Made by a program: the position numbers and the translations under genes
The notes under the pieces: model-generated
Told to the model about the DNA's origin: nothing
What the model saw: only the letters and a program-made list of their open reading frames with translations
Databases searched by the model: none
Part shown: positions 31,218-40,645 of the stretch, one piece after another
Position numbering within the stretch: the first letter of the stretch is position 1
Layout of the letters: every line of letters begins with the position of its first letter
NCBI GenBank assembly: GCA_030148085.1
Contig: JASBUF010000052.1
Span: 1 to 40,645, forward strand
Origin: Methylophaga sp.
GTDB taxonomy: Bacteria; Pseudomonadota; Gammaproteobacteria; Nitrosococcales; Methylophagaceae
Direction of reading: 5' to 3'
DNA: 40,645 nucleotides

Positions 31218-32309
31218 TCAAGCGTGCGGATGACAATTTTGCAGTGCTGCCACAATGTTTTTATCAAGCTGCTGCTGACATTCGGCTTCTGAGTCAGCTT
31301 GGACAATCAGGGTACAGATTGGTTGTCCTGCCACAATAGTGTCGCCGGCATGCGGTAGATCATGACAGCCATCTGGCCAGCTTGGAGTCTGACCGATTCT
31401 CACCTGACTTTCCGCGATTAGGTAATGCAGCATTCTGACCGGTGATTGGGGCACAGGTTCACACACCGGCAGCCGACCTGAGCAGGCGGCGAGATGCCAG
31501 CCAAACACCTTAGCTGGACTCAGCAATTCAGCAGAGGCGCTGATGCGAGGATTTATTTCGAGAATGAAGACTTTTCCCTGCTCATCAAGCAGATAATCCA
31601 GACTATTAAAGCCGCGTAGCGCGCATGCTGTGACGAGCTTGCTCACAGCCTCAGTAATCACAGACTGACATGCGGGTGGCGGATAACCAGGTTGTTGTAA
31701 TTGAGTTAGCGTGAAGCTGTCCGAATCATGGTGTTGACTACTCCAGGCCAGAATCTGCGCTTGTATCCCATCAGCAAGAAAGCAGACGGAATAACTATTC
31801 CCTTCAACATAGCGCTGATAATACTCACTTTTGCTCAGCGTCTTGCTAGATGCGCATTGAATGCTGTAACCACCGCTGCTCGCCATATCTTTTATTAGGT
31901 AGTCGAAAGCTGGTCTTGTGTAGGCCACTTCCGGGAATGGTAGTGCAAGCGTTTCAAGCAAGCTGAAAAAAAGCTGCGGTTGTCGAAGCTGGAAAAAGCT
32001 TTCCAGCGGGTTGCCTGCAAACTGGATATGAGGTGGGAGCTCTGCAAGTAGAGGGTAGAATTGTTCGATCCCCGTGCCGCAGACCAGCCAGCAAGGCTGC
32101 TGTTCGCTCAGTTCGACAATGACCGAGAGTAAGTGCTCTGAGCTTAGCTCTGAGAGTGGAGGTAATGCATGCCAGTGCTCTGCGAGACGAAGTGTGTCTG
32201 CATCACCAAAACAATCAGCCAGCCGAACCGTATAACCGGCGCGGGTGGCTGATTCGGCAATAAATCGCCCGCTTTGTGCAAAGACCAGTACGAGTGACGG
32301 ACTTTGCAT
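31218..32309 (-). CDS. ATP-grasp protein of the methanopterin gene cluster
   Basis: 363-residue ATP-grasp enzyme of the COG2232-like group. An N-terminal Rossmann-like half (about 1-100) precedes the ATP-grasp core, with the nucleotide lysine in IKDMASSGGYSIQ (Lys140) and the metal-binding EINPRISASAEL (Glu251, Asn253). A C-terminal beta-rich part follows. Homologues lie among H4MPT genes in methylotrophs (Orf17 of Methylobacterium is the likely counterpart, from memory) and in methanogens, suggesting a ligase step in tetrahydromethanopterin assembly. The actual substrate is unproven. It starts 14 bases after mtdB with no good ribosome-binding site, so translation is probably coupled. Confidence 0.75.
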   Translation of the reverse strand: MQSPSLVLVFAQSGRFIAESATRAGYTVRLADCFGDADTLRLAEHWHALPPLSELSSEHLLSVIVELSEQQPCWLVCGTGIEQFYPLLAELPPHIQFAGNPLESFFQLRQPQLFFSLLETLALPFPEVAYTRPAFDYLIKDMASSGGYSIQCASSKTLSKSEYYQRYVEGNSYSVCFLADGIQAQILAWSSQHHDSDSFTLTQLQQPGYPPPACQSVITEAVSKLVTACALRGFNSLDYLLDEQGKVFILEINPRISASAELLSPAKVFGWHLAACSGRLPVCEPVPQSPVRMLHYLIAESQVRIGQTPSWPDGCHDLPHAGDTIVAGQPICTLIVQADSEAECQQQLDKNIVAALQNCHPHA

Positions 32310-32323
32310 GATGAACTGGCTAC

Positions 32324-33229
32324 TTAAACCAGTTTGCGCGCACCTTCAAAGGCGTTACGGAAGTCGAGGTAGACTGGCTTCTCGCTTTCAAGGGTTTCGC
32401 GCAGCAGAGTTTGTTGCAGTTTGTATTTGATGTCGCCGACTGCCAGCGCACCGATACCAACAGCATCAGACGCATTTTTCGCGTGTTCCAGTGGTGCACC
32501 GAAGTCCATCAGCTTGACGCCTTCAATACCCAGTGGCGGTACCGCATTGACATCACCAGCGACTTTCAGCTGTTTGGCGTCGGCCAGGACCGAGGCATTC
32601 AATACCTGAATACCGGCTTTAGCGGTGCAGAAGACGACATCGGCATCAGCTAGCAGACGGGCTTTATCGGCATCAGAGGCGGCAGTGGTTGCGCGCAGTT
32701 CAACGCCATAGCGGACTTTGGCTTCTTTGGCGAATTCCAAAGCTGTGTCCAGTGAAAAGTGATCGACGATGGTGGTTTGCGCACCAGCCAGAGCCGCAAT
32801 CACCGCCGTGGCCAGACCCACAGGGCCGGTACCACCGAAGACAACCGCTTTGGCACCTTCGTAACCTTGGCTGAACTTGGCTTTCAGTTCACGCTCAACA
32901 CAAGCAACTAAGGCTGCAGCCGTGGTGAAGGCGCCACTTGGATCCGCCATCACGGAAATTTCAAACGGCGGTACCATGGCTTTTTTGGCTGCTTCAAGCA
33001 TATCCATAGCCAGACCGATATCACGACCACCAATAAACATACTGGTTTTCTTCACGCCAGAAGGGCCGCGCGAGAAAATAGCATCCTGTGTCAGGCCGGC
33101 CACTTCTTCCAGCGTGACATGCTGATAAGGGATCAGTACGTCATAGCCGGCATCCAGCGCCATATTGATATCAAACGGGCTGTTATGCTTCATCGGGTTG
33201 ATCATATGAGCGATAGAACGTTTGGACAT
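32324..33229 (-). CDS. mtdB: NAD(P)-dependent methylene-tetrahydromethanopterin dehydrogenase
   Basis: Oxidises methylene-H4MPT to methenyl-H4MPT in the formaldehyde-oxidation pathway. The 301-residue sequence follows Methylobacterium MtdB: ML/MINPMKHxSPFDINMALDAG start, TQDAIFSRGP, FIGGRD, MADPSGAFTTAAA, Rossmann loop VVFGGTGPVGLA (129-140), DVNAVPPLGIEG and a C-terminal YLDFRNAFE. AAGGAAAA precedes the ATG. It lies 53 bases after mptG in an operon mtdA-mptG-mtdB-ATP-grasp. The next-step gene mch is not adjacent and must be elsewhere. Confidence 0.92.
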   Translation of the reverse strand: MSKRSIAHMINPMKHNSPFDINMALDAGYDVLIPYQHVTLEEVAGLTQDAIFSRGPSGVKKTSMFIGGRDIGLAMDMLEAAKKAMVPPFEISVMADPSGAFTTAAALVACVERELKAKFSQGYEGAKAVVFGGTGPVGLATAVIAALAGAQTTIVDHFSLDTALEFAKEAKVRYGVELRATTAASDADKARLLADADVVFCTAKAGIQVLNASVLADAKQLKVAGDVNAVPPLGIEGVKLMDFGAPLEHAKNASDAVGIGALAVGDIKYKLQQTLLRETLESEKPVYLDFRNAFEGARKLV

Positions 33230-33282
33230 GAGTTTTCCTTAAAAATTAAAGACTAAAGCGGTTTGAGCAATCATAGCCAGTC

Positions 33283-34311
33283 TTATGCTGCTGTTTCAAT
33301 GATTGCACCATGATTATCTGCATGTGCTGAAATGAATAGTGGGCGAAGGTCAGCGTCATAGCTTGTTGCTACATAGTCCGACAACTGCTGGATGAGTGTC
33401 TGCGCCTGCTGCTCTGAGCTGACAAACACACAGCCTGTGGGGCCCCATGAGCTTTGAGCAATGCCCCGATGACCGAGTTGTTGTGCTTGATGCAAACACG
33501 CGGCCACGCGTGGACTGGTGTAACGCCCCCCTTGTGCCGGGGCAAAATGATCACCAATCAGCCCTTGTATGTCGGTAATTGCGGCGCCGAATTGATCGAT
33601 ATCGCGCTCTGCCAAAGCCGGTAATAACTGCATCAGGGTGAGGTGACAGATAGCCTGCGACTGCGCCAGCGGGAATGGTGGCAAGTCACGGAAAGCCTGT
33701 TTTTCAGTCTGGCCATGAATGCCCTGATGATGCGGATCCATAACCAACACAATGCGCCAGTCTTCCGGGTAGGCCTGCTGCACCAGCATCGGTGGTACGG
33801 TCTGGTCTGGTTTAAGACCGCCATCGACAACAAAACCACCATGATCAAAGGTGGCAATGCCGATACCTGAGCGTTTGCCTCTACCGAGGGCCTGAGCAAT
33901 AGCATGCGTATTGCAATCCAATTGATACAACTGGCTTAGGGCTTTGCCCAGTGTCAGTGCCAATTGGGTACCGCTGCCAAAGCCGGCGTGTTCAGGGATC
34001 AGCGATGTAATATCGATTCTTACATCTGACTTGTTGTCCGCGATGACATCGCTAAATTGATCGTGGAACTGTTTAGTCAGGTTGTGAAGTTTATCTTCAG
34101 TTTCAGCAGACACCGGCAGACCGCTGAGCTCAAAGTGCTCAGCGGTGCTGACGGTTAATGCCGTATGGTGACTGCCAATGGCCAGACCGATACTGCCAAA
34201 ACGACGGCCGATACTGGCATTCAGGTCTAAAAAGCCCAGATGGAGTCTGGCTGGTGCCCGAACGCTGACCGATTGCAGGGCAGCCGGGCTGTCAGCGGAG
34301 TGTGACTTCAC
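33283..34311 (-). CDS. mptG: Beta-ribofuranosylaminobenzene 5'-phosphate synthase
   Basis: First committed enzyme of the methanopterin branch: condenses 4-aminobenzoate with PRPP, releasing CO2 and pyrophosphate. The 342-residue protein is GHMP-kinase-like, with an N-terminal APARLHLGFLDLN strand and IPEHAGFGSGTQLALTLGKAL (about 105-125). GGFVVDGG and SSWGPTGCVFV follow. These match archaeal and methylotroph MptG (Orf4). The start is GTG, overlapping the mtdA stop (GTGA on the minus strand), so it is translationally coupled. Its presence shows the cell makes an H4MPT-type cofactor. Confidence 0.9.
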   Translation of the reverse strand: MKSHSADSPAALQSVSVRAPARLHLGFLDLNASIGRRFGSIGLAIGSHHTALTVSTAEHFELSGLPVSAETEDKLHNLTKQFHDQFSDVIADNKSDVRIDITSLIPEHAGFGSGTQLALTLGKALSQLYQLDCNTHAIAQALGRGKRSGIGIATFDHGGFVVDGGLKPDQTVPPMLVQQAYPEDWRIVLVMDPHHQGIHGQTEKQAFRDLPPFPLAQSQAICHLTLMQLLPALAERDIDQFGAAITDIQGLIGDHFAPAQGGRYTSPRVAACLHQAQQLGHRGIAQSSWGPTGCVFVSSEQQAQTLIQQLSDYVATSYDADLRPLFISAHADNHGAIIETAA

Positions 34312-35174
34312 TGTGCGTTATCAATCTTGCAGGCGATGTCGTAAATGGTGGTCTCATCGAGAAACAGATCATTGGTCTCATAGAGAGAGGCAATCGCACC
34401 ACGGTGGACTTTCATTTTGAAGTTACCGATAGCGATGGCGCCATAATGACGAATACCGTTTTTCTCTTCACCGTTATCCATCACCTCAATACCAGCAACA
34501 CCCAATGGTGGGACGGCGTTTACATCGGCGATAACTTCCAGTGTGGTGTTACCTTCAAGTGCTGATGCAGGGACCACACAAACTCCGGCTGGACCGGCGG
34601 CAATGGCTACATGGGCATCAGCCAGTAATGATTTCACGGCTTCATCACTACGGGTTTCACCTGGAATGACATCAACGCCATAAGACTCTTTCATCTGCTC
34701 GGTGATGACTGTGCTGCGTTCCAGACTGCGTGAGGTCAGGGTGACTTTGGCTGCGCCTTCTTTGATCAGGTACAGGGCACTGCGTTGGCCGACAGGACCA
34801 GAGCCAAGGATCACGACATTTTTGTCTTTCACGTCGAAGTCGGTCAGAACTTTACGCACGATAGCCGCTGCTGTGGTGTTAGAACCGTTCGGGTCGAGCA
34901 TGACGGAAACTCTGACCGGACCGAAAAAGGCTTTCTTGACTGCCTGGCCCACCAGGTCAGAGGCAGCCACATTGGAGCCACCGATGAAAATGGCACTGTT
35001 TTTCAGGTTTTTACCACCGCGGGTAAAGATCATACCGTGCACATGTGGGGTAACGTTATCGCGGGTCGCACCACCGTGGGCGATGATATTGTCTACACCG
35101 GAGTCATAGGCCACGGCCTGATCAAAAGTGCTTGCAACTGGGTCAGTGTCCAGGTGCAGTAACAGTTTTTTCAT
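34308..35174 (-). CDS. mtdA: MtdA-like NADP-dependent methylene-H4MPT/H4F dehydrogenase
   Basis: 288 residues from the chosen start, exactly the length of Methylobacterium MtdA, with parallel motifs: KKLLLHLDTD start, TRGGKN, AIFIGG, VKKAFFGPVRVSVMLDPNGSN (also the catalytic/binding core), Rossmann loop LGSGPVGQR (123-131), DVNAVPPLGVAG and GNFKMKVHR. The start at 35174 is supported by AGGAG nine bases upstream. An open frame reaching 35375 has no family match. MtdA proteins use NADP with methylene-H4MPT and some also with methylene-H4F; which applies here is not decided by sequence. First gene of the methanopterin operon and paralogous to mtdB two genes on. Confidence 0.87.
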   Translation of the reverse strand: MKKLLLHLDTDPVASTFDQAVAYDSGVDNIIAHGGATRDNVTPHVHGMIFTRGGKNLKNSAIFIGGSNVAASDLVGQAVKKAFFGPVRVSVMLDPNGSNTTAAAIVRKVLTDFDVKDKNVVILGSGPVGQRSALYLIKEGAAKVTLTSRSLERSTVITEQMKESYGVDVIPGETRSDEAVKSLLADAHVAIAAGPAGVCVVPASALEGNTTLEVIADVNAVPPLGVAGIEVMDNGEEKNGIRHYGAIAIGNFKMKVHRGAIASLYETNDLFLDETTIYDIACKIDNAQ

Positions 35175-35414
35175 CTGGGTTTCTCCTGATCGCCTTTCGG
35201 CGGTTAAATCTGAACATAAACTGCTGATTTTACCTGATGTTGTCGGGCAGAGAAACTTAAACCGTGTTGTCATTATGATCGTCGACTTCACAACTGACGG
35301 ATTTGATGTACTATGCAGAATCTGTTGAATGCAACGAGTTTGAATCAGGAACTTAGCATATAAATGACGAGTCACAGCTCAGTCGTCAGATAACTACAAA
35401 ATCAGGAGAGATAA

Positions 35415-35765
35415 ATGAAGAAAGCTGGTATGACCTTAATTGCTGCAGGTATGGCTATGTTGCCCGCACTGTCGATGGCAAATGACTTCTCTACGGTGAC
35501 ACGTGTGCATTTTGTTATGGACTGTATGGCTGCCAATGAGGGTATGAATGTCTATGAAGGCACACACAAATGTTCCTGTGTGATCGATAAAATCGCCGAA
35601 GTGTTCACCGAAAAAGAATTTGAAGATGTCAGTGTTGGCTTTATGTATAAAAACCTGCCAGCGGATCGTGGTGCTACTTTCCGTGATGACAAAGGAGTAC
35701 GTAAAGGCCTGAAGTTGTTTGAAGAAACCACTGCTAATGCCTATCAGGAATGTCGAATTCGTTAA
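35415..35765 (+). CDS. Small secreted protein with four cysteines, near the quinoprotein relay genes
   Basis: 116-residue precursor with a clear signal peptide (MKKAGMTLIAAGMAMLPALSMA, cleavage likely before Asn23). The mature ~94 residues contain Cys37, a CSC motif (Cys53, Cys55) and Cys113. They also have an acidic/aromatic helix-like segment (AEVFTEKEFEDV) and a DRGATFRDDKGVRKGL block. I know no function. From memory, similar small proteins sit beside PQQ-dehydrogenase genes in other bacteria, which would fit this location. AGGAGAGA precedes the ATG. Divergent from mtdA and convergent with the SoxYZ-like gene. The cysteines could form disulfides or bind a metal. Confidence 0.75.
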   Translation: MKKAGMTLIAAGMAMLPALSMANDFSTVTRVHFVMDCMAANEGMNVYEGTHKCSCVIDKIAEVFTEKEFEDVSVGFMYKNLPADRGATFRDDKGVRKGLKLFEETTANAYQECRIR

Positions 35766-35782
35766 TGATCTGATATCTCAAT

Positions 35783-35810
35783 AAAAAAGGCCGCGATTGC
35801 GGCCTTTTTT
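35783..35810. terminator. Bidirectional terminator between the small secreted gene and the SoxYZ-like gene
   Basis: Stem AAGGCCGC / GCGGCCTT with loop GATT, flanked by A and T runs, lying between two converging genes. Confidence 0.9.
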
Positions 35811-35841
35811 ATTGGCTCCTCACTCACCTAAGGAAAGTTAT

Positions 35842-36639
35842 TTAAATGTCTTTTTCCAGACTGAATTGTTGTTGTTTACTGTCCTTGACCACCGCTTTCA
35901 GCTTACCATGCTCATCCGGTGTGAAGGTGAAGCGTACGCTGGGATCTTCACTCATTGAAATACCGGCTTCTACTCTGATCAATGTTTTGTTGTTATAGCT
36001 GATATCAATATCATCGACATAGTGGGCAGGAATGTACTTACGGTTTTGCTGGTCGTATTGCAGGCCGCTGTAGTTAGGGTGGCTCACGATAACCTGTGCC
36101 TGAACAGGTTCACCGACAGTGGCTTCGCGCATGCGGATTTGCATTTGTCCAAGCCGTGCCAAAGCGGCTGCCGCATCTTTACCAGCAGGCGCACTACAAC
36201 CACCAGACGCTTTAACAAAGCGCGATACCATATGCAGGCTGCCATCATTCATCTCAGCAATGGCGCGTACATAGGTGTATTGGTCAATACGCATACGGGT
36301 AGAAATGTCGACAGTGCCAAGTTCAGGGGAGAGCTGAAAGTTTGCTGAATAGGGCATGGGGTTTTCATCAATAATCACATGGATATTTTTGATGTATTTG
36401 TCTGCAGATTGTGGAACCAGTGACTTGATAGAAATGGGCACAATAGCGGCATCTTCCGCCCGCTTGGGCGCTTCAATGACCAGTAAGTCATCAGCATTAT
36501 CCCGTATGCTTTTATCACCGAAATAAGCAGTCTTCAGTGACGGCCAGATAGGTTCCTTATCCGTAGCGGCCTGAGCTACTGGTATCGCTAACATCAGCAT
36601 GAGGCTGAGCGCGAAAAATTGTGTGATTCGTGTAAACAT
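35842..36639 (-). CDS. Quinoprotein dehydrogenase-associated SoxYZ-like carrier protein
   Basis: 265 residues from the start at 36639, chosen for the AGGAGAGAG just upstream; an ATG at 36654 would overlap that site. A signal peptide (residues 1-24, ending VAQA) targets the periplasm. The first domain resembles SoxY and ends with GGCSAP, placing a carrier cysteine at Cys148. The second domain (about 165-265) resembles SoxZ. Natural SoxY and SoxZ are separate sulfur-compound carriers; this fused form is a known family found near PQQ dehydrogenases. No soxA, B, C or X gene is nearby, so thiosulfate oxidation is not implied. The cargo on Cys148 is unknown. Confidence 0.85.
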   Translation of the reverse strand: MFTRITQFFALSLMLMLAIPVAQAATDKEPIWPSLKTAYFGDKSIRDNADDLLVIEAPKRAEDAAIVPISIKSLVPQSADKYIKNIHVIIDENPMPYSANFQLSPELGTVDISTRMRIDQYTYVRAIAEMNDGSLHMVSRFVKASGGCSAPAGKDAAAALARLGQMQIRMREATVGEPVQAQVIVSHPNYSGLQYDQQNRKYIPAHYVDDIDISYNNKTLIRVEAGISMSEDPSVRFTFTPDEHGKLKAVVKDSKQQQFSLEKDI

Positions 36640-36803
36640 CTCTCTCTCCTGCATACAGCATTATTATTATGGTTACTTACTTGCCTATAGCCTTTGAACA
36701 AGGGCCCAGTTTAAAGTTCCGTGCCGCTAAATGATTGATTTTTACATCGCTTTCAATGACTCAAGCGGTTTAACTATATCGCGATTTTGTGCTTAACCGG
36801 TGT

Positions 36804-37742
36804 TTATTCCCACTCCAACTCGACAAACGCAGCCGTCACATTTCGGCGGTGGTATTCATCAAACAATAGCCATTTGTCTTTTTCTGCCAGTCCGACGCTA
36901 GCGGTGGCCTCTTCAATAGTGCCGAAGTCCAGAATAATGTCCCGGATCTGCTGACGAATCGACGTCAGGTAGAGCAATTGAGCCTGCCAGCCGGCTTGGC
37001 CGAGATCCGTGCTACCTGCCGGACCGTGACCAGGCACGATATAGTTGACCGGCATCTGTTGTAATTGTTCACTGATCGCTATCCAGCCATTGATGCTGCC
37101 GTCCAGAGCCGGGGTGCGTTCAATAAACAGCAGATCGCCGGTCCATAATGTCTGGGTCTGTTTGTCGAAAACAGTGAGATCATGATCGGTGTGTGACGTG
37201 GTGAAAGCAGTGAGAACAAGCTCTCTGTTTCCCAGATCGATCGTTACGGGCTGATCGATACTGACAGTCTGTGAGGGAGCAATAAACTCGGTACCGGTGT
37301 AGGCATCACCTAATGTCTCAGAAAAGCTGCGTTTAAAGAAGTCTTCACGAGCGGCCATCGCCGCCGACAGTTTTTCATGACCTATATATATAGTATGTGC
37401 GCCGTTGAAAGCAGCATTGCCCAAAGTGTGATCGGGATGTACATGGGTGTTGATGATATAGCAAACCGGTTTGTCAGTCACAGACTGAACAGCCTTGGCC
37501 AGTAGCTCACCTTCTTTATAGCTGCCGCCGCTATCAATCACTGCCACACAGTCGCTGCCGATAATAAAACCGACATTGGCAATAGCGCCGAAATTCTCCA
37601 CGGACGCATCCTCATGCACACCTTGATGGTAATAGATGCCGTCAGTGACTTGCTCTACAGAATAAGTCTGTTGCGCACAGGCCGTTTGACTGAAAAACGT
37701 AATACCAAGGCTGATGGTTGTCAGCAAAGCCCTTATTAGCAT
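36804..37742 (-). CDS. Periplasmic metallo-beta-lactamase-fold hydrolase (quinoprotein relay type)
   Basis: 312 residues from 37742, where a signal peptide begins (MLIRALLTTISLGITFFSQTACA) with AGAGAGG upstream; a longer frame to 37868 lacks one. The zinc motif HVHPDH gives His100, His102, Asp104 and His105. Later SHTDHD and VPGHGPAG carry the other ligand residues. The group accompanies SoxYZ-like carriers and quinoprotein alcohol dehydrogenases and has been named quinoprotein relay metallohydrolase. It is upstream of the carrier gene by about 165 bases on the same strand. The reaction is unknown; cleaving a thioester or persulfide from the carrier is one possibility. Confidence 0.82.
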   Translation of the reverse strand: MLIRALLTTISLGITFFSQTACAQQTYSVEQVTDGIYYHQGVHEDASVENFGAIANVGFIIGSDCVAVIDSGGSYKEGELLAKAVQSVTDKPVCYIINTHVHPDHTLGNAAFNGAHTIYIGHEKLSAAMAAREDFFKRSFSETLGDAYTGTEFIAPSQTVSIDQPVTIDLGNRELVLTAFTTSHTDHDLTVFDKQTQTLWTGDLLFIERTPALDGSINGWIAISEQLQQMPVNYIVPGHGPAGSTDLGQAGWQAQLLYLTSIRQQIRDIILDFGTIEEATASVGLAEKDKWLLFDEYHRRNVTAAFVELEWE

Positions 37743-37820
37743 GCGATCCTCTCTATCCTGAGCATGAGGCTGGTACAATAACCCACCTTTAACAAGACTA
37801 TCCAGTTGAGAGTTTATTAC

Positions 37821-39224
37821 ATGACCATTCGTACCCGCTTTGCTCCCAGCCCAACCGGTTATCTGCATGTAGGTGGTGCTCGTACCGCTTTATTCTCCTG
37901 GCTTTATGCCCGTAAGCATGGCGGCCAGTTTGTTCTGCGTATTGAAGATACCGATCTCGAGCGTTCTACGGCGGAGTCGGTCAATGCCATTCTTGAAGGC
38001 ATGACCTGGTTGGGGCTGAGCTACGATGAAGGTCCTTTTTATCAAACGCAGCGTTTCGACCGTTATAAAGAAGTGATTCAGCAATTGATGGATCAAGGTG
38101 ATGCCTATCACTGCTACTGCTCTAAAGAAGAACTGGACGAGATGCGTGAGGAGCAACGCGCCAATAAACAAAAGCCACGCTATGATGGCCGCTGCCGTCA
38201 TCGCACCGAGCCAAGAGCAGGTGTTGAGCCGGTTGTTCGCTTCAAAAATCCGACGGAAGGCAGTGTCATCGTCAAGGATGTCATTCGTGGAAATGTTGAA
38301 TTTAAAAACACGGAGCTGGATGATCTGATCATTGCTCGCCCGGATGGCACACCGACCTACAACCTCACCGTGGTTGTGGATGATATGGATATGCAACTGA
38401 CCCATGTGATTCGAGGTGATGACCATCTGAATAACTCACCGCGCCAGATCAATCTTTACCGGGCTCTGAGGGCTGAGCCACCGGTGTTCGCCCATGTGCC
38501 GATGATTCTGGGTGATGACGGTGCGCGCTTATCCAAACGTCATGGTGCTGTGAGTGTGATGAGCTACCGTGATCAAGGCTATTTACCGGAAGCCCTGTTG
38601 AACTACCTGGTGCGTCTGGGCTGGTCACATGGCGATCAGGAAATTTTCTCTCTGGATGAAATGACCCAGCTGTTCGATATTGAGGACGTCAACAAAGCTG
38701 CTTCCAGCTTCAATACCGACAAACTGCTGTGGCTAAACCAGCAATACATTAAGAATAGTAGTCCGGAGCATGTGGCCCATCATTTAGGCTGGCATTTGGG
38801 ACAGCTGGGCATCGATCCTGCAACAGGTCCGGAACTGACCGAGGTGGTTAAAACACAGCAGGAGCGAGCTAAAACGCTGGTGGAGATGGCAGCGAACAGT
38901 CGTTTCTTTTATAAGGACGTTGAGGAGTACGATGAAAAAGCGGCCAATAAAAACCTCAATGAAGCCTGTTTGCCGTTATTGGAAGACATGCATGCCCGTC
39001 TGAGTAATGTGACAGAGTGGTTGGCCGAACCAGTACATGCAGAGATTAAACTCTGTGCTGAGGCGAATGACGTCGGTATGGGGAAAGTCGCTCAACCAAT
39101 TCGGGTGGCCATTACCGGAAATACCGTTTCTCCACCCCTCGATGTCACACTGGCATTACTGGGTCGTGAGCGCACGTTGGCAGCGATCAGCAAAGCGATA
39201 GATTGGATCAAAGATCGTGCCTAA
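37821..39224 (+). CDS. gltX: Glutamate--tRNA ligase
   Basis: Class I aminoacyl-tRNA synthetase of 467 residues. The HIGH-type signature [13 protein letters not shown] and KMSKS-type LSKRHG (in [13 protein letters not shown]) are both clear. The zinc-site region [16 protein letters not shown] and the C-terminal anticodon-binding helical domain are present. The ATG at 37821 aligns with the E. coli N-terminus ([12 protein letters not shown]). An in-frame TTG at 37806 would only add five residues. An AT-rich repeat just after the stop (AAAAAG...CTTTTTTT) may be a weak terminator. Divergent from the hydrolase gene. Confidence 0.97.
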
Positions 39225-39269
39225 AAAAGGATTTAAAGCTTTTTTTCTAGATTAATCAGTGGTTTACTG

Positions 39270-39291
39270 TTTCGGGAAAAAATTCCCGAAA
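39270..39291. promoter_or_regulatory. Perfect palindrome upstream of xoxF, possible operator
   Basis: TTTCGGGAA (39270-39278) and TTCCCGAAA (39283-39291) are exact inverted copies around AAAA. No T-run follows on either strand, so it is not a standard terminator. It lies about 40 bases before the xoxF -35 box, a position suited to an activator or other regulator. Confidence 0.5.
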
Positions 39292-39330
39292 AAAATATGG
39301 AAAATATCACAAAAAAGATCAGGAAGATGC

Positions 39331-39359
39331 TTGACTAACGTTTTCAGCGAGATTATGGT
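39331..39359 (+). promoter_or_regulatory. Predicted sigma-70 promoter for xoxF
   Basis: TTGACT (39331-39336) and TATGGT (39354-39359) are spaced by exactly 17 bases. A start near 39366 would give a leader of about 75 bases, ending in an AGAGGAAAA ribosome-binding site seven bases before the ATG. Confidence 0.6.
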
Positions 39360-39440
39360 TTGCTCTACGCATGGAGTACAGCGATGTGATTTTCATGACG
39401 TAAATATAAATACTAATAAAGCAATGTAGAGGAAAACTTT

Positions 39441-40645
39441 ATGAAGCTGAAAACTTTGTCATTGGCTATGATGTCACTGGCAGTACCAGGTCTGGTTGCT
39501 GCTGATGAACTGGCCACAATGCAAGAAAACGAAGCTAACTGGGTAATGCCAGCAGGTAACTACAAAAACCAACGTTACTCAGAGCTGACTCAAATCAACA
39601 AAGACAATGTCAAAAACCTGAAAATGGCATGGTCTTTCTCAACTGGTGTACTGCGTGGTCACGAAGGTAACTCTTTGGTTATCGACGGTACTATGTACGT
39701 TCACACACCATTCCCTAACATCGTATACGCGTTGGATCTGAACAACGACGGTGCGATCAAGTGGAAATATGAGCCAAAACAAAACTACGACGAAACTGTG
39801 CCAGTCATGTGCTGTGACACCGTTTACCGTGGTCTGTCTTACGGCGATGGCAAAATCTTCCTGAACCAAGCTGACACGACTCTGGTTGCATTGAATGCAG
39901 CAGACGGTAGCGTTGTCTGGTCTGACAAACGTGACGATGCTAAACGTGGTGCGACCAGCACTGCTGCTGCTCACGTATTCAAAGATAAAGTCATCGTTGG
40001 TATCTCAGGTGGTGAGTTCGGCGTACGTGGTTACGTTCAAGCTTACGACATGGACGGTAACGTTCTGTACCGCGCTTACAGCACTGGTCCTGACGAAGAA
40101 ATGCTGGTTGATCCAGTTAAAACCACTTCTATGCTGAAACCAGTTGGCAAAGATTCTTCTTTGAAAACCTGGCAAGGCGACCAGTGGAAAATCGGTGGCG
40201 GTACAACCTGGGGTTGGTACTCATACGATAAAGACTTAGACATGTTCTACTACGGTAACGGTAACCCGTCTACCTGGAACCCGGTTCAACGTCCTGGCGA
40301 CAACAAGTGGACCATGTCTCTGTGGGGTCGTGACCTCGACACCGGTATGGCGAAATGGGTTTACCAAATGACGCCATACGATGAGTGGGACTACGACGGT
40401 GTTAACGAAGTGATCCTGGCTGAACAAAAAGTCAAAGGCAAAATGCACAAGACTGCTGTTCACTTCGACCGTAACGGTTTCGCTTACACCATGGACCGTG
40501 AAAGCGGTGAACTGCTGGTTGCAGAAAAATATGACCCAGCGGTTAACTGGTCAAACGGTGTTAACCTGAAAACCGGTCGTCACGATCGCGTTGCCAAGTA
40601 CTCCACTGCCCGTAACGGCGAAGACGTGAACACCACAGGTATCTG
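39441..40645 (+). CDS. xoxF: XoxF-type PQQ-dependent methanol dehydrogenase, N-terminal two thirds
   Basis: Cut by the window end after 401 codons (the family is about 600 residues). A signal peptide (1-20 or 21) sends it to the periplasm, where it oxidises methanol with PQQ and passes electrons to a c-type cytochrome. Visible features are the vicinal Cys124-Cys125 pair beside PQQ, Glu192 in GGEFGVRG, Asn275 in GNPSTWNP, catalytic Asp317 and, two residues on, Asp319 in DEWDYDG. Calcium-dependent MxaF enzymes carry Ala at that last position; Asp there marks lanthanide-dependent XoxF. The remaining genes expected downstream (xoxG, xoxJ) are outside the window. Confidence 0.92.

Follow-up and report, generated by a model that had tools for sequence, protein, structure and literature searches.

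A four-cysteine companion of XoxF5 and a SoxYZ-like carrier with its hydrolase: a proposed gene set for lanthanide-type quinoproteins at a Methylophaga locus

Do three neighbouring genes for exported proteins close to xoxF, one of which resembles a sulfur carrier, serve the lanthanide-type methanol dehydrogenase, and do they act as a single system? This question is raised by a contig of Methylophaga sp. (JASBUF010000052.1, assembly GCA_030148085.1), whose whole stretch of 40,645 nucleotides is called the window here. XoxF enzymes perform much of the methanol oxidation in the environment, and the maturation and protection of enzymes that hold a lanthanide and pyrroloquinoline quinone (PQQ) are poorly known. 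A sequence-only reading of the window had located the three neighbouring genes correctly and had joined their products in one covalent relay. The three genes and the dehydrogenase gene are the following.

35415 to 35765, forward strand: small exported four-cysteine protein, 116 amino acids, putative Orf6-type XoxF5 companion (named by synteny), recognised by the family alignment A2 and by its occurrence in the same genomes as XoxF5-like enzymes
36654 to 35842, reverse strand: quinoprotein dehydrogenase-associated SoxYZ-like fused carrier (TIGR04557), 270 amino acids from the first ATG, recognised by its family score and the Pfam SoxY and SoxZ domains
37742 to 36804, reverse strand: exported hydrolase with a binuclear-zinc-type site, quinoprotein relay system zinc metallohydrolase 2 (TIGR04559), 312 amino acids, recognised by its family score and metal ligands
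39441 to 40643, forward strand: xoxF, lanthanide-type PQQ methanol dehydrogenase, N-terminal 401 amino acids, 489 bits against TIGR03075 (above the cut-off), with the WDYD signature

The three proteins of the trio are putatively exported, as judged by eye from their hydrophobic N-termini. The xoxF gene is interrupted by the contig end at 40645, and its product carries the lanthanide-type signature (DEWDYDGVN), that is, the extra Asp two residues past the catalytic Asp (WDYD) that we take to mark such enzymes.

Our results separate the small protein from the other two. It is a nearly strict companion of XoxF5 without a matching family in Pfam or NCBIfam, and it constitutes the new part of this analysis; it is probably a dedicated, indispensable XoxF5 factor, and it most likely acts as a factor of the Orf6 type that XoxF requires in order to function, an identity assigned by synteny. 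The carrier and the hydrolase behave like a dispensable pair for lanthanide-type quinoproteins more widely; both are named families, and their association with quinoproteins is already in print. The account that we favour as fairly probable is thus a scattered XoxF5 gene set, in which the small protein would be an Orf6-type XoxF factor and the other two a maintenance pair for lanthanide-type quinoproteins.

The distribution of the small protein was followed with alignment A2, which was built from relatives adjoining carriers in other genera. Among 229 genomes of Pseudomonadota it matches in 19 (10 genera, genomes of the same genus not being independent), and these are exactly the 19 with an XoxF5-like dehydrogenase, defined as at least 60% identity to the XoxF query, a line set after a gap between about 62% and about 52–54% was seen. 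Four enzymes at 48–52% identity in this sample were typed, one showing HDYD and three WDYA, which is presumably the signature as in MxaF. In a second sample, 168 genomes of the host's class, the small protein occurs in 17 and XoxF of at least 60% identity in 16, all within those 17; in the seventeenth (G411, of the same genus as the window), XoxF is confined to pieces at contig ends, on which the genome was counted as XoxF-positive. The small gene lies at most 2.5 kb upstream of xoxF on the same strand in 10 of these 17 genomes, and directly before xoxF at L272, L273 and L276. A chance small open reading frame (ORF) is ruled out by 98 distinct relatives sharing the four invariant cysteines; Thr27 and Asp58 are likewise invariant in all 98, which were picked by the family model. 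The papers cited here by PMC number are represented by excerpts, and according to one of them, XoxF of six Methylophaga genomes belongs to clade XoxF5 (PMC6548844).

Then, could the small protein still be part of the carrier system? A continuous fused carrier above the TIGR04557 cut-off is present in 26 of the 229 genomes (14 genera), while 21 further genomes, which reach the cut-off only when their separate soxY and soxZ are read as one across an internal stop, were left out of the count. The small protein goes with XoxF5 rather than with the carrier, because one genome (G070) has XoxF and the small protein and is without carrier and hydrolase, and because 8 of the 26 carrier genomes lack the small protein, which the other 18 have. 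Consequently, its membership in the carrier system proper is ruled out by the differing distributions, and the single relay of the sequence-only reading is not supported for all three proteins, the more so as orf6 is in the published XoxF1 screen list, whereas META1p1703–1705, the carrier and hydrolase homologues, are not in the part of the list available (PMC7391723). In the excerpts of the literature on these families, the small protein was not found as a named member of the carrier and hydrolase set. Among 80 named carrier loci, the top 80 of at least 584 relatives and hence biased towards close kin of the window carrier, the fetched flank includes the small gene in 49, convergent after the carrier gene in 37 and co-directional before the hydrolase gene in 12.

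The likeness to Orf6 emerges from gene order. At L201 and L202, one strand carries xoxF-xoxG-xoxJ and the other pqqCD-pqqE-orf7-small gene-folP, and in L201 the names are backed by family models (methanol-related cytochrome TIGR03874, TIGR03871, folK, folB, folP, PqqE and a fused PqqC-PqqD). The locus tags of Methylorubrum extorquens AM1 are xoxF1 1740, xoxG 1741, xoxJ 1742, orf6 1746, orf7 1747, pqqE 1748 and pqqCD 1749 (PMC7391723). The order folP-small gene-orf7-pqqE-pqqCD matches META1p1746–1749, and the small protein therefore corresponds by position to Orf6 (MexAM1_META1p1746), whose gene has the same place between the fol genes and orf7-pqqE-pqqCD near xoxFGJ. This order is found for the relatives in L201 and L202 and not at the window locus; likened to orf6 by gene position only, the Methylophaga gene adjoins a tetrahydromethanopterin (H4MPT) gene and the carrier gene, not pqq genes. 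In AM1, a screen for XoxF1 function hit orf6 four times or more. On methanol with lanthanum, the orf6 deletion grew at 0.03 per h, compared with 0.16 for the wild type and 0.04 for xoxF1 xoxF2 as well as for xoxG and xoxJ, and the need for orf6 was reported only with lanthanum (PMC7391723). In the AlphaFold2 (AF2) model, the small protein folds entirely into helices, five in all, and its ten-residue blocks from residue 31 on average 74–94 in the predicted local distance difference test (pLDDT). We would picture a compact helical, probably disulfide-braced periplasmic protein that XoxF may need for assembly, activation or coupling.

Gene order also brings in orf7, which encodes an unnamed protein of about 230 amino acids and is present in 27 of the 80 named loci, immediately preceding the small gene in 14; for orf7, as for orf6, a mutant phenotype has been published. 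The orf7 family (for example L201:9984-10697; 47 ORFs, some genes being counted repeatedly where loci overlap) is without a match in Pfam or NCBIfam, looks exported, and is located next to the small gene, xoxJ or pqqE. At seven of the 80 loci, xoxF-xoxG-xoxJ-orf7-small gene-hydrolase-carrier are all co-directional, namely L126, L129, L131 (Azohydromonas), L135 (Thauera), L149 (Variovorax), L151 (Thauera) and L174 (Rubrivivax), so that the full set occurs in some Betaproteobacteria; L170 has six of the seven genes, orf7 being missing. These seven genes may form one transcript, and a gap of about 0.6–0.75 kb lies ahead of orf7 in L129, L131 and L174. Such gene orders with xoxFGJ and orf7, with pqqCDE nearby, as well as the cysteine-based parts, would also suit joint maturation, in which carrier, hydrolase and small protein together form the vicinal disulfide of the dehydrogenase or insert PQQ or the lanthanide, and a review has proposed disulfide formation or cofactor stabilisation (PMC12997753). 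However, calcium-type enzymes share the vicinal disulfide even in species without these genes (PMC12997753), and the small protein and the carrier are distributed differently; joint maturation is therefore rather unlikely in our view.

The carrier scores 284 bits against TIGR04557 (cut-off 140) and holds fused SoxY and SoxZ domains (PF13501 and PF08770). Counted from the first ATG, the carrier cysteine in the arm VKASGGCSAP (codon 36196–36198) is Cys153. A start at the ATG five codons downstream makes it Cys148, the numbering of the sequence-only reading, which had rightly recognised this cysteine, the carrier and hydrolase families and the intact HxHxDH of the hydrolase. The cysteine is invariant in all 108 carriers examined, and in 99 of them it is the sole cysteine from about 110 residues upstream of the arm to the C-terminus. 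In the AF2 model (mean pLDDT 84), the GGCSAP arm sits between two beta-rich halves, on a loop modelled with low confidence (block mean 60) that connects strand 140–148 with helix 161–167. Because this loop lies between the two halves, the arm would be held at both ends, whereas that of SoxY is C-terminal. At L050:10841-11449, a rhodanese-like PQQ_CXXCW protein (TIGR03865) is encoded directly after the carrier gene, and its cluster is found in 29 of the loci clustered (one representative was identified).

Could the carrier and hydrolase simply be left-over or moonlighting parts of thiosulfate oxidation (SoxYZ and SoxH)? The homology with SoxY and SoxZ and the single arm cysteine are shared with the SoxYZ thiosulfate carrier that works with SoxB; the host genome has DsrE2, TusA and soxYZ elsewhere, and SoxB above the cut-off is somewhat commoner in carrier genomes (10/26 versus 17/203 others). 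However, the window carrier is one fused gene with an internal GGCSAP and PQQ genes as neighbours, and SoxB was not found in the host genome by family search (the genome is about 90% complete). A true Sox system is ruled out by the internal arm, the lack of a SoxB match in the host genome and scores below the SoxY and SoxZ cut-offs (TIGR04488, 78 versus 125 bits; TIGR04490, 67 versus 76 bits), and 16 of the 26 carrier genomes are without SoxB above the cut-off. The thiosulfate explanation is consequently very improbable. That no sulfur-oxidation genes lie around the trio is borne out by a family scan of the window part 31218–40643, but not for the genome as a whole, where a second xoxF, on contig C43, is accompanied by DsrE2, TusA and an unfused soxY and soxZ. 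As far as detected, the host thus has no complete sox set that would use the carrier; yet SoxB occurs in 10 of the 26 carrier genomes.

The link to PQQ or lanthanide dehydrogenases proposed by the sequence-only reading is supported by co-occurrence. PQQ alcohol dehydrogenases above the cut-off are present in 48 genomes, comprising all 26 carrier genomes and 22 of the 203 others; 5 to 10 candidates were scored per genome, so that further dehydrogenases may be missed, and the Fisher tests ignore kinship. Enzymes of lanthanide type (WD[YF]D) were found in 25 of the 26 carrier genomes, for which not every alcohol dehydrogenase was fetched, and in 10 of the 22 non-carrier genomes, for which all those listed above the cut-off were fetched; one of the 10 (G147) is an odd WDFDS case. 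TIGR04559 hydrolases are above the cut-off in 19 genomes and TIGR04558 hydrolases in 8, with both in one, and the union is exactly the 26 carrier genomes. The hydrolase type tracks the dehydrogenase, since XoxF5-like enzymes are present in 18 of the 19 TIGR04559 genomes and in none of the 7 with TIGR04558 only. At the 80 named loci, the hydrolase gene is found in 70 and a PQQ alcohol dehydrogenase gene in 33.

These results agree with published descriptions. In Pseudomonas putida, PP_2666 (rhodanese-like), PP_2677 (carrier) and PP_2678 (hydrolase) are conserved with lanthanide and PQQ dehydrogenases, and shielding of PQQ from sulfur species is proposed besides the two roles mentioned above (PMC12997753). 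A fused SoxYZ-S4 has been tied to xoxF and formate dehydrogenase genes, with thiosulfate protection suggested (PMC11237559), and a similar ensemble is described in Hyphomicrobium (PMC11582611). Methylophaga thiooxydans has two soxYZ fusions and no SoxAB (PMC6548844), and in one Pseudomonas that uses methanol the carrier and hydrolase genes adjoin those of PQQ dehydrogenases (PMC12875217). Compared with PP_2677 and with SoxYZ-S4 of Thiodiazotropha by the descriptions in these papers, the window carrier is of the same kind, with fused SoxY-SoxZ, a GGC arm, and a PQQ dehydrogenase and a SoxH-like hydrolase in the neighbourhood; here, gltX stands between it and xoxF, and after it comes the small gene in convergent orientation.

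The hydrolase scores 384 bits against TIGR04559 (cut-off 280) and does not differ in kind from these SoxH-like proteins, as it shares the exported metallo-beta-lactamase (MBL) fold, the full set of metal ligands and the carrier neighbour. The HxHxDH motif and the later His, Asp and His ligands are each kept in at least 95 of 97 hydrolase sequences. Among proteins of solved structure, those closest to the hydrolase in sequence are a chlorothalonil dehalogenase (6uxu) and a further MBL protein (8d2z); a subclass B1 metallo-beta-lactamase (NF033088, 52 versus 200 bits) and a glyoxalase II (TIGR03413, 20 versus 201 bits) are ruled out. The single invariant cysteine and complete metal site would nevertheless fit a covalent aldehyde relay, a protein-bound periplasmic analogue of the glutathione route, in which formaldehyde on the carrier cysteine forms a hemithioacetal, oxidation by the quinoprotein yields a thioester and a glyoxalase II-like hydrolase releases formate. 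Carrier and hydrolase co-occur exactly, and they are mostly limited to genomes with lanthanide-type enzymes, some of which go on to formate (ExaF converts methanol to formate; PMC7391723). However, the product of AM1 XoxF1 is formaldehyde and not formate (PMC6414531), the carrier and hydrolase genes are outside the XoxF1 formaldehyde screen list as far as it is available (PMC7391723), and the hydrolase is far under the glyoxalase II cut-off, which makes an aldehyde relay improbable.

Under the favoured account, the carrier and hydrolase would serve lanthanide-type quinoproteins generally, XoxF with TIGR04559 and ExaF/PedH-like enzymes with TIGR04558. The cysteine on the internal flexible arm most likely accepts a reactive group, probably based on sulfur, and so spares PQQ or the enzyme thiols from modification by it, and the zinc hydrolase may free the carrier by hydrolysis, so that the pair would maintain the enzyme rather than turn over substrate. 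The lanthanide, as the stronger Lewis acid, might leave PQQ more exposed to attack. Such a sulfur-adduct cycle fits the ancestry of the pair in SoxYZ and SoxH and the rhodanese-like TIGR03865 neighbour. In a bolder form, which we offer only tentatively, the XoxF5 class would depend on the Orf6-type four-cysteine protein, which together with Orf7, carrier and hydrolase may make up an unrecognised 'xox completion' set whose cysteine-adduct cycle keeps the lanthanide-PQQ site active.

Several observations weigh against this account. The identity with Orf6 is one of gene order alone; L201 has four ORFs between xoxJ and the small gene (L,D-transpeptidase, folK, folB and folP), while the AM1 tags leave room for three; and comparison of the small protein with the PDB gave no informative match to a solved structure. 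The small gene is outside the fetched carrier flank in 31 of the 80 named loci; the genomes of 30 of them have a small-family match elsewhere or on another contig, including G247, where it is a fragment only. The remaining one, G237 (Methylococcus sp. UBA6136, a metagenome-assembled genome of 2.4 Mb), encodes an XoxF of 63% identity (L132) and has no small-family match, and is either a true exception or an assembly gap. In one carrier genome (G054), no lanthanide-type enzyme was detected among incompletely scored candidates. The pair is not obligatory, because the XoxF5 genome G070 lacks both genes. Two further findings concern its putative function: META1p1703–1705, homologues according to PMC12997753, are missing from the list of genes with at least four hits in the XoxF1 screen, the available part of which covers their number range (PMC7391723), and in P. 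putida the mutants have only minimal phenotypes when rare earths are absent (PMC12997753).

Since a severe phenotype has been published for the syntenic counterpart of this XoxF5 companion, the protein is a missing component of the lanthanide system that lends itself directly to experiment. Besides, gene order ties the enigmatic 'quinoprotein relay' pair to genes with lanthanide-dependent phenotypes, which indicates where and when to seek the carrier adduct.

As to the surroundings of the trio, the sequence-only reading had put it between methanopterin genes and xoxF. It is indeed flanked by H4MPT genes (a methylene-H4MPT dehydrogenase-like protein and beta-RFAP synthase) on one side, but gltX intervenes before xoxF on the other. 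The H4MPT cluster (window 31218-35174) encodes an ATP-grasp protein, two Mpt_N-domain proteins and beta-RFAP synthase. Between the convergent small and carrier genes lies one further element, on which a consensus scan gave no report.

35779 to 35814, no strand assigned: terminator-like bidirectional hairpin, -25.2 kcal/mol, z -8.2

Relatives of the small gene have other neighbours elsewhere. In Methylococcales-like genomes (L245–L258), the small protein resembles a lipoprotein by eye, and its gene often has a MobA-like gene and one for a DUF302-type protein as neighbours, identifications confirmed on representatives; in Paraburkholderia solisilvae (L260) the small gene is near the gene for the formaldehyde-activating enzyme Fae, which recalls the H4MPT neighbour in the window. 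The second xoxF of the host genome (L004, G000:C43, 953-8037) is at a contig end and its product is 98% identical to the first over its first 157 amino acids; the near-identical copies probably split the assembly. Upstream of it are located soxY, soxZ, DsrE2, TusA, a BepA-like M48 peptidase, a sensor kinase and response regulators.

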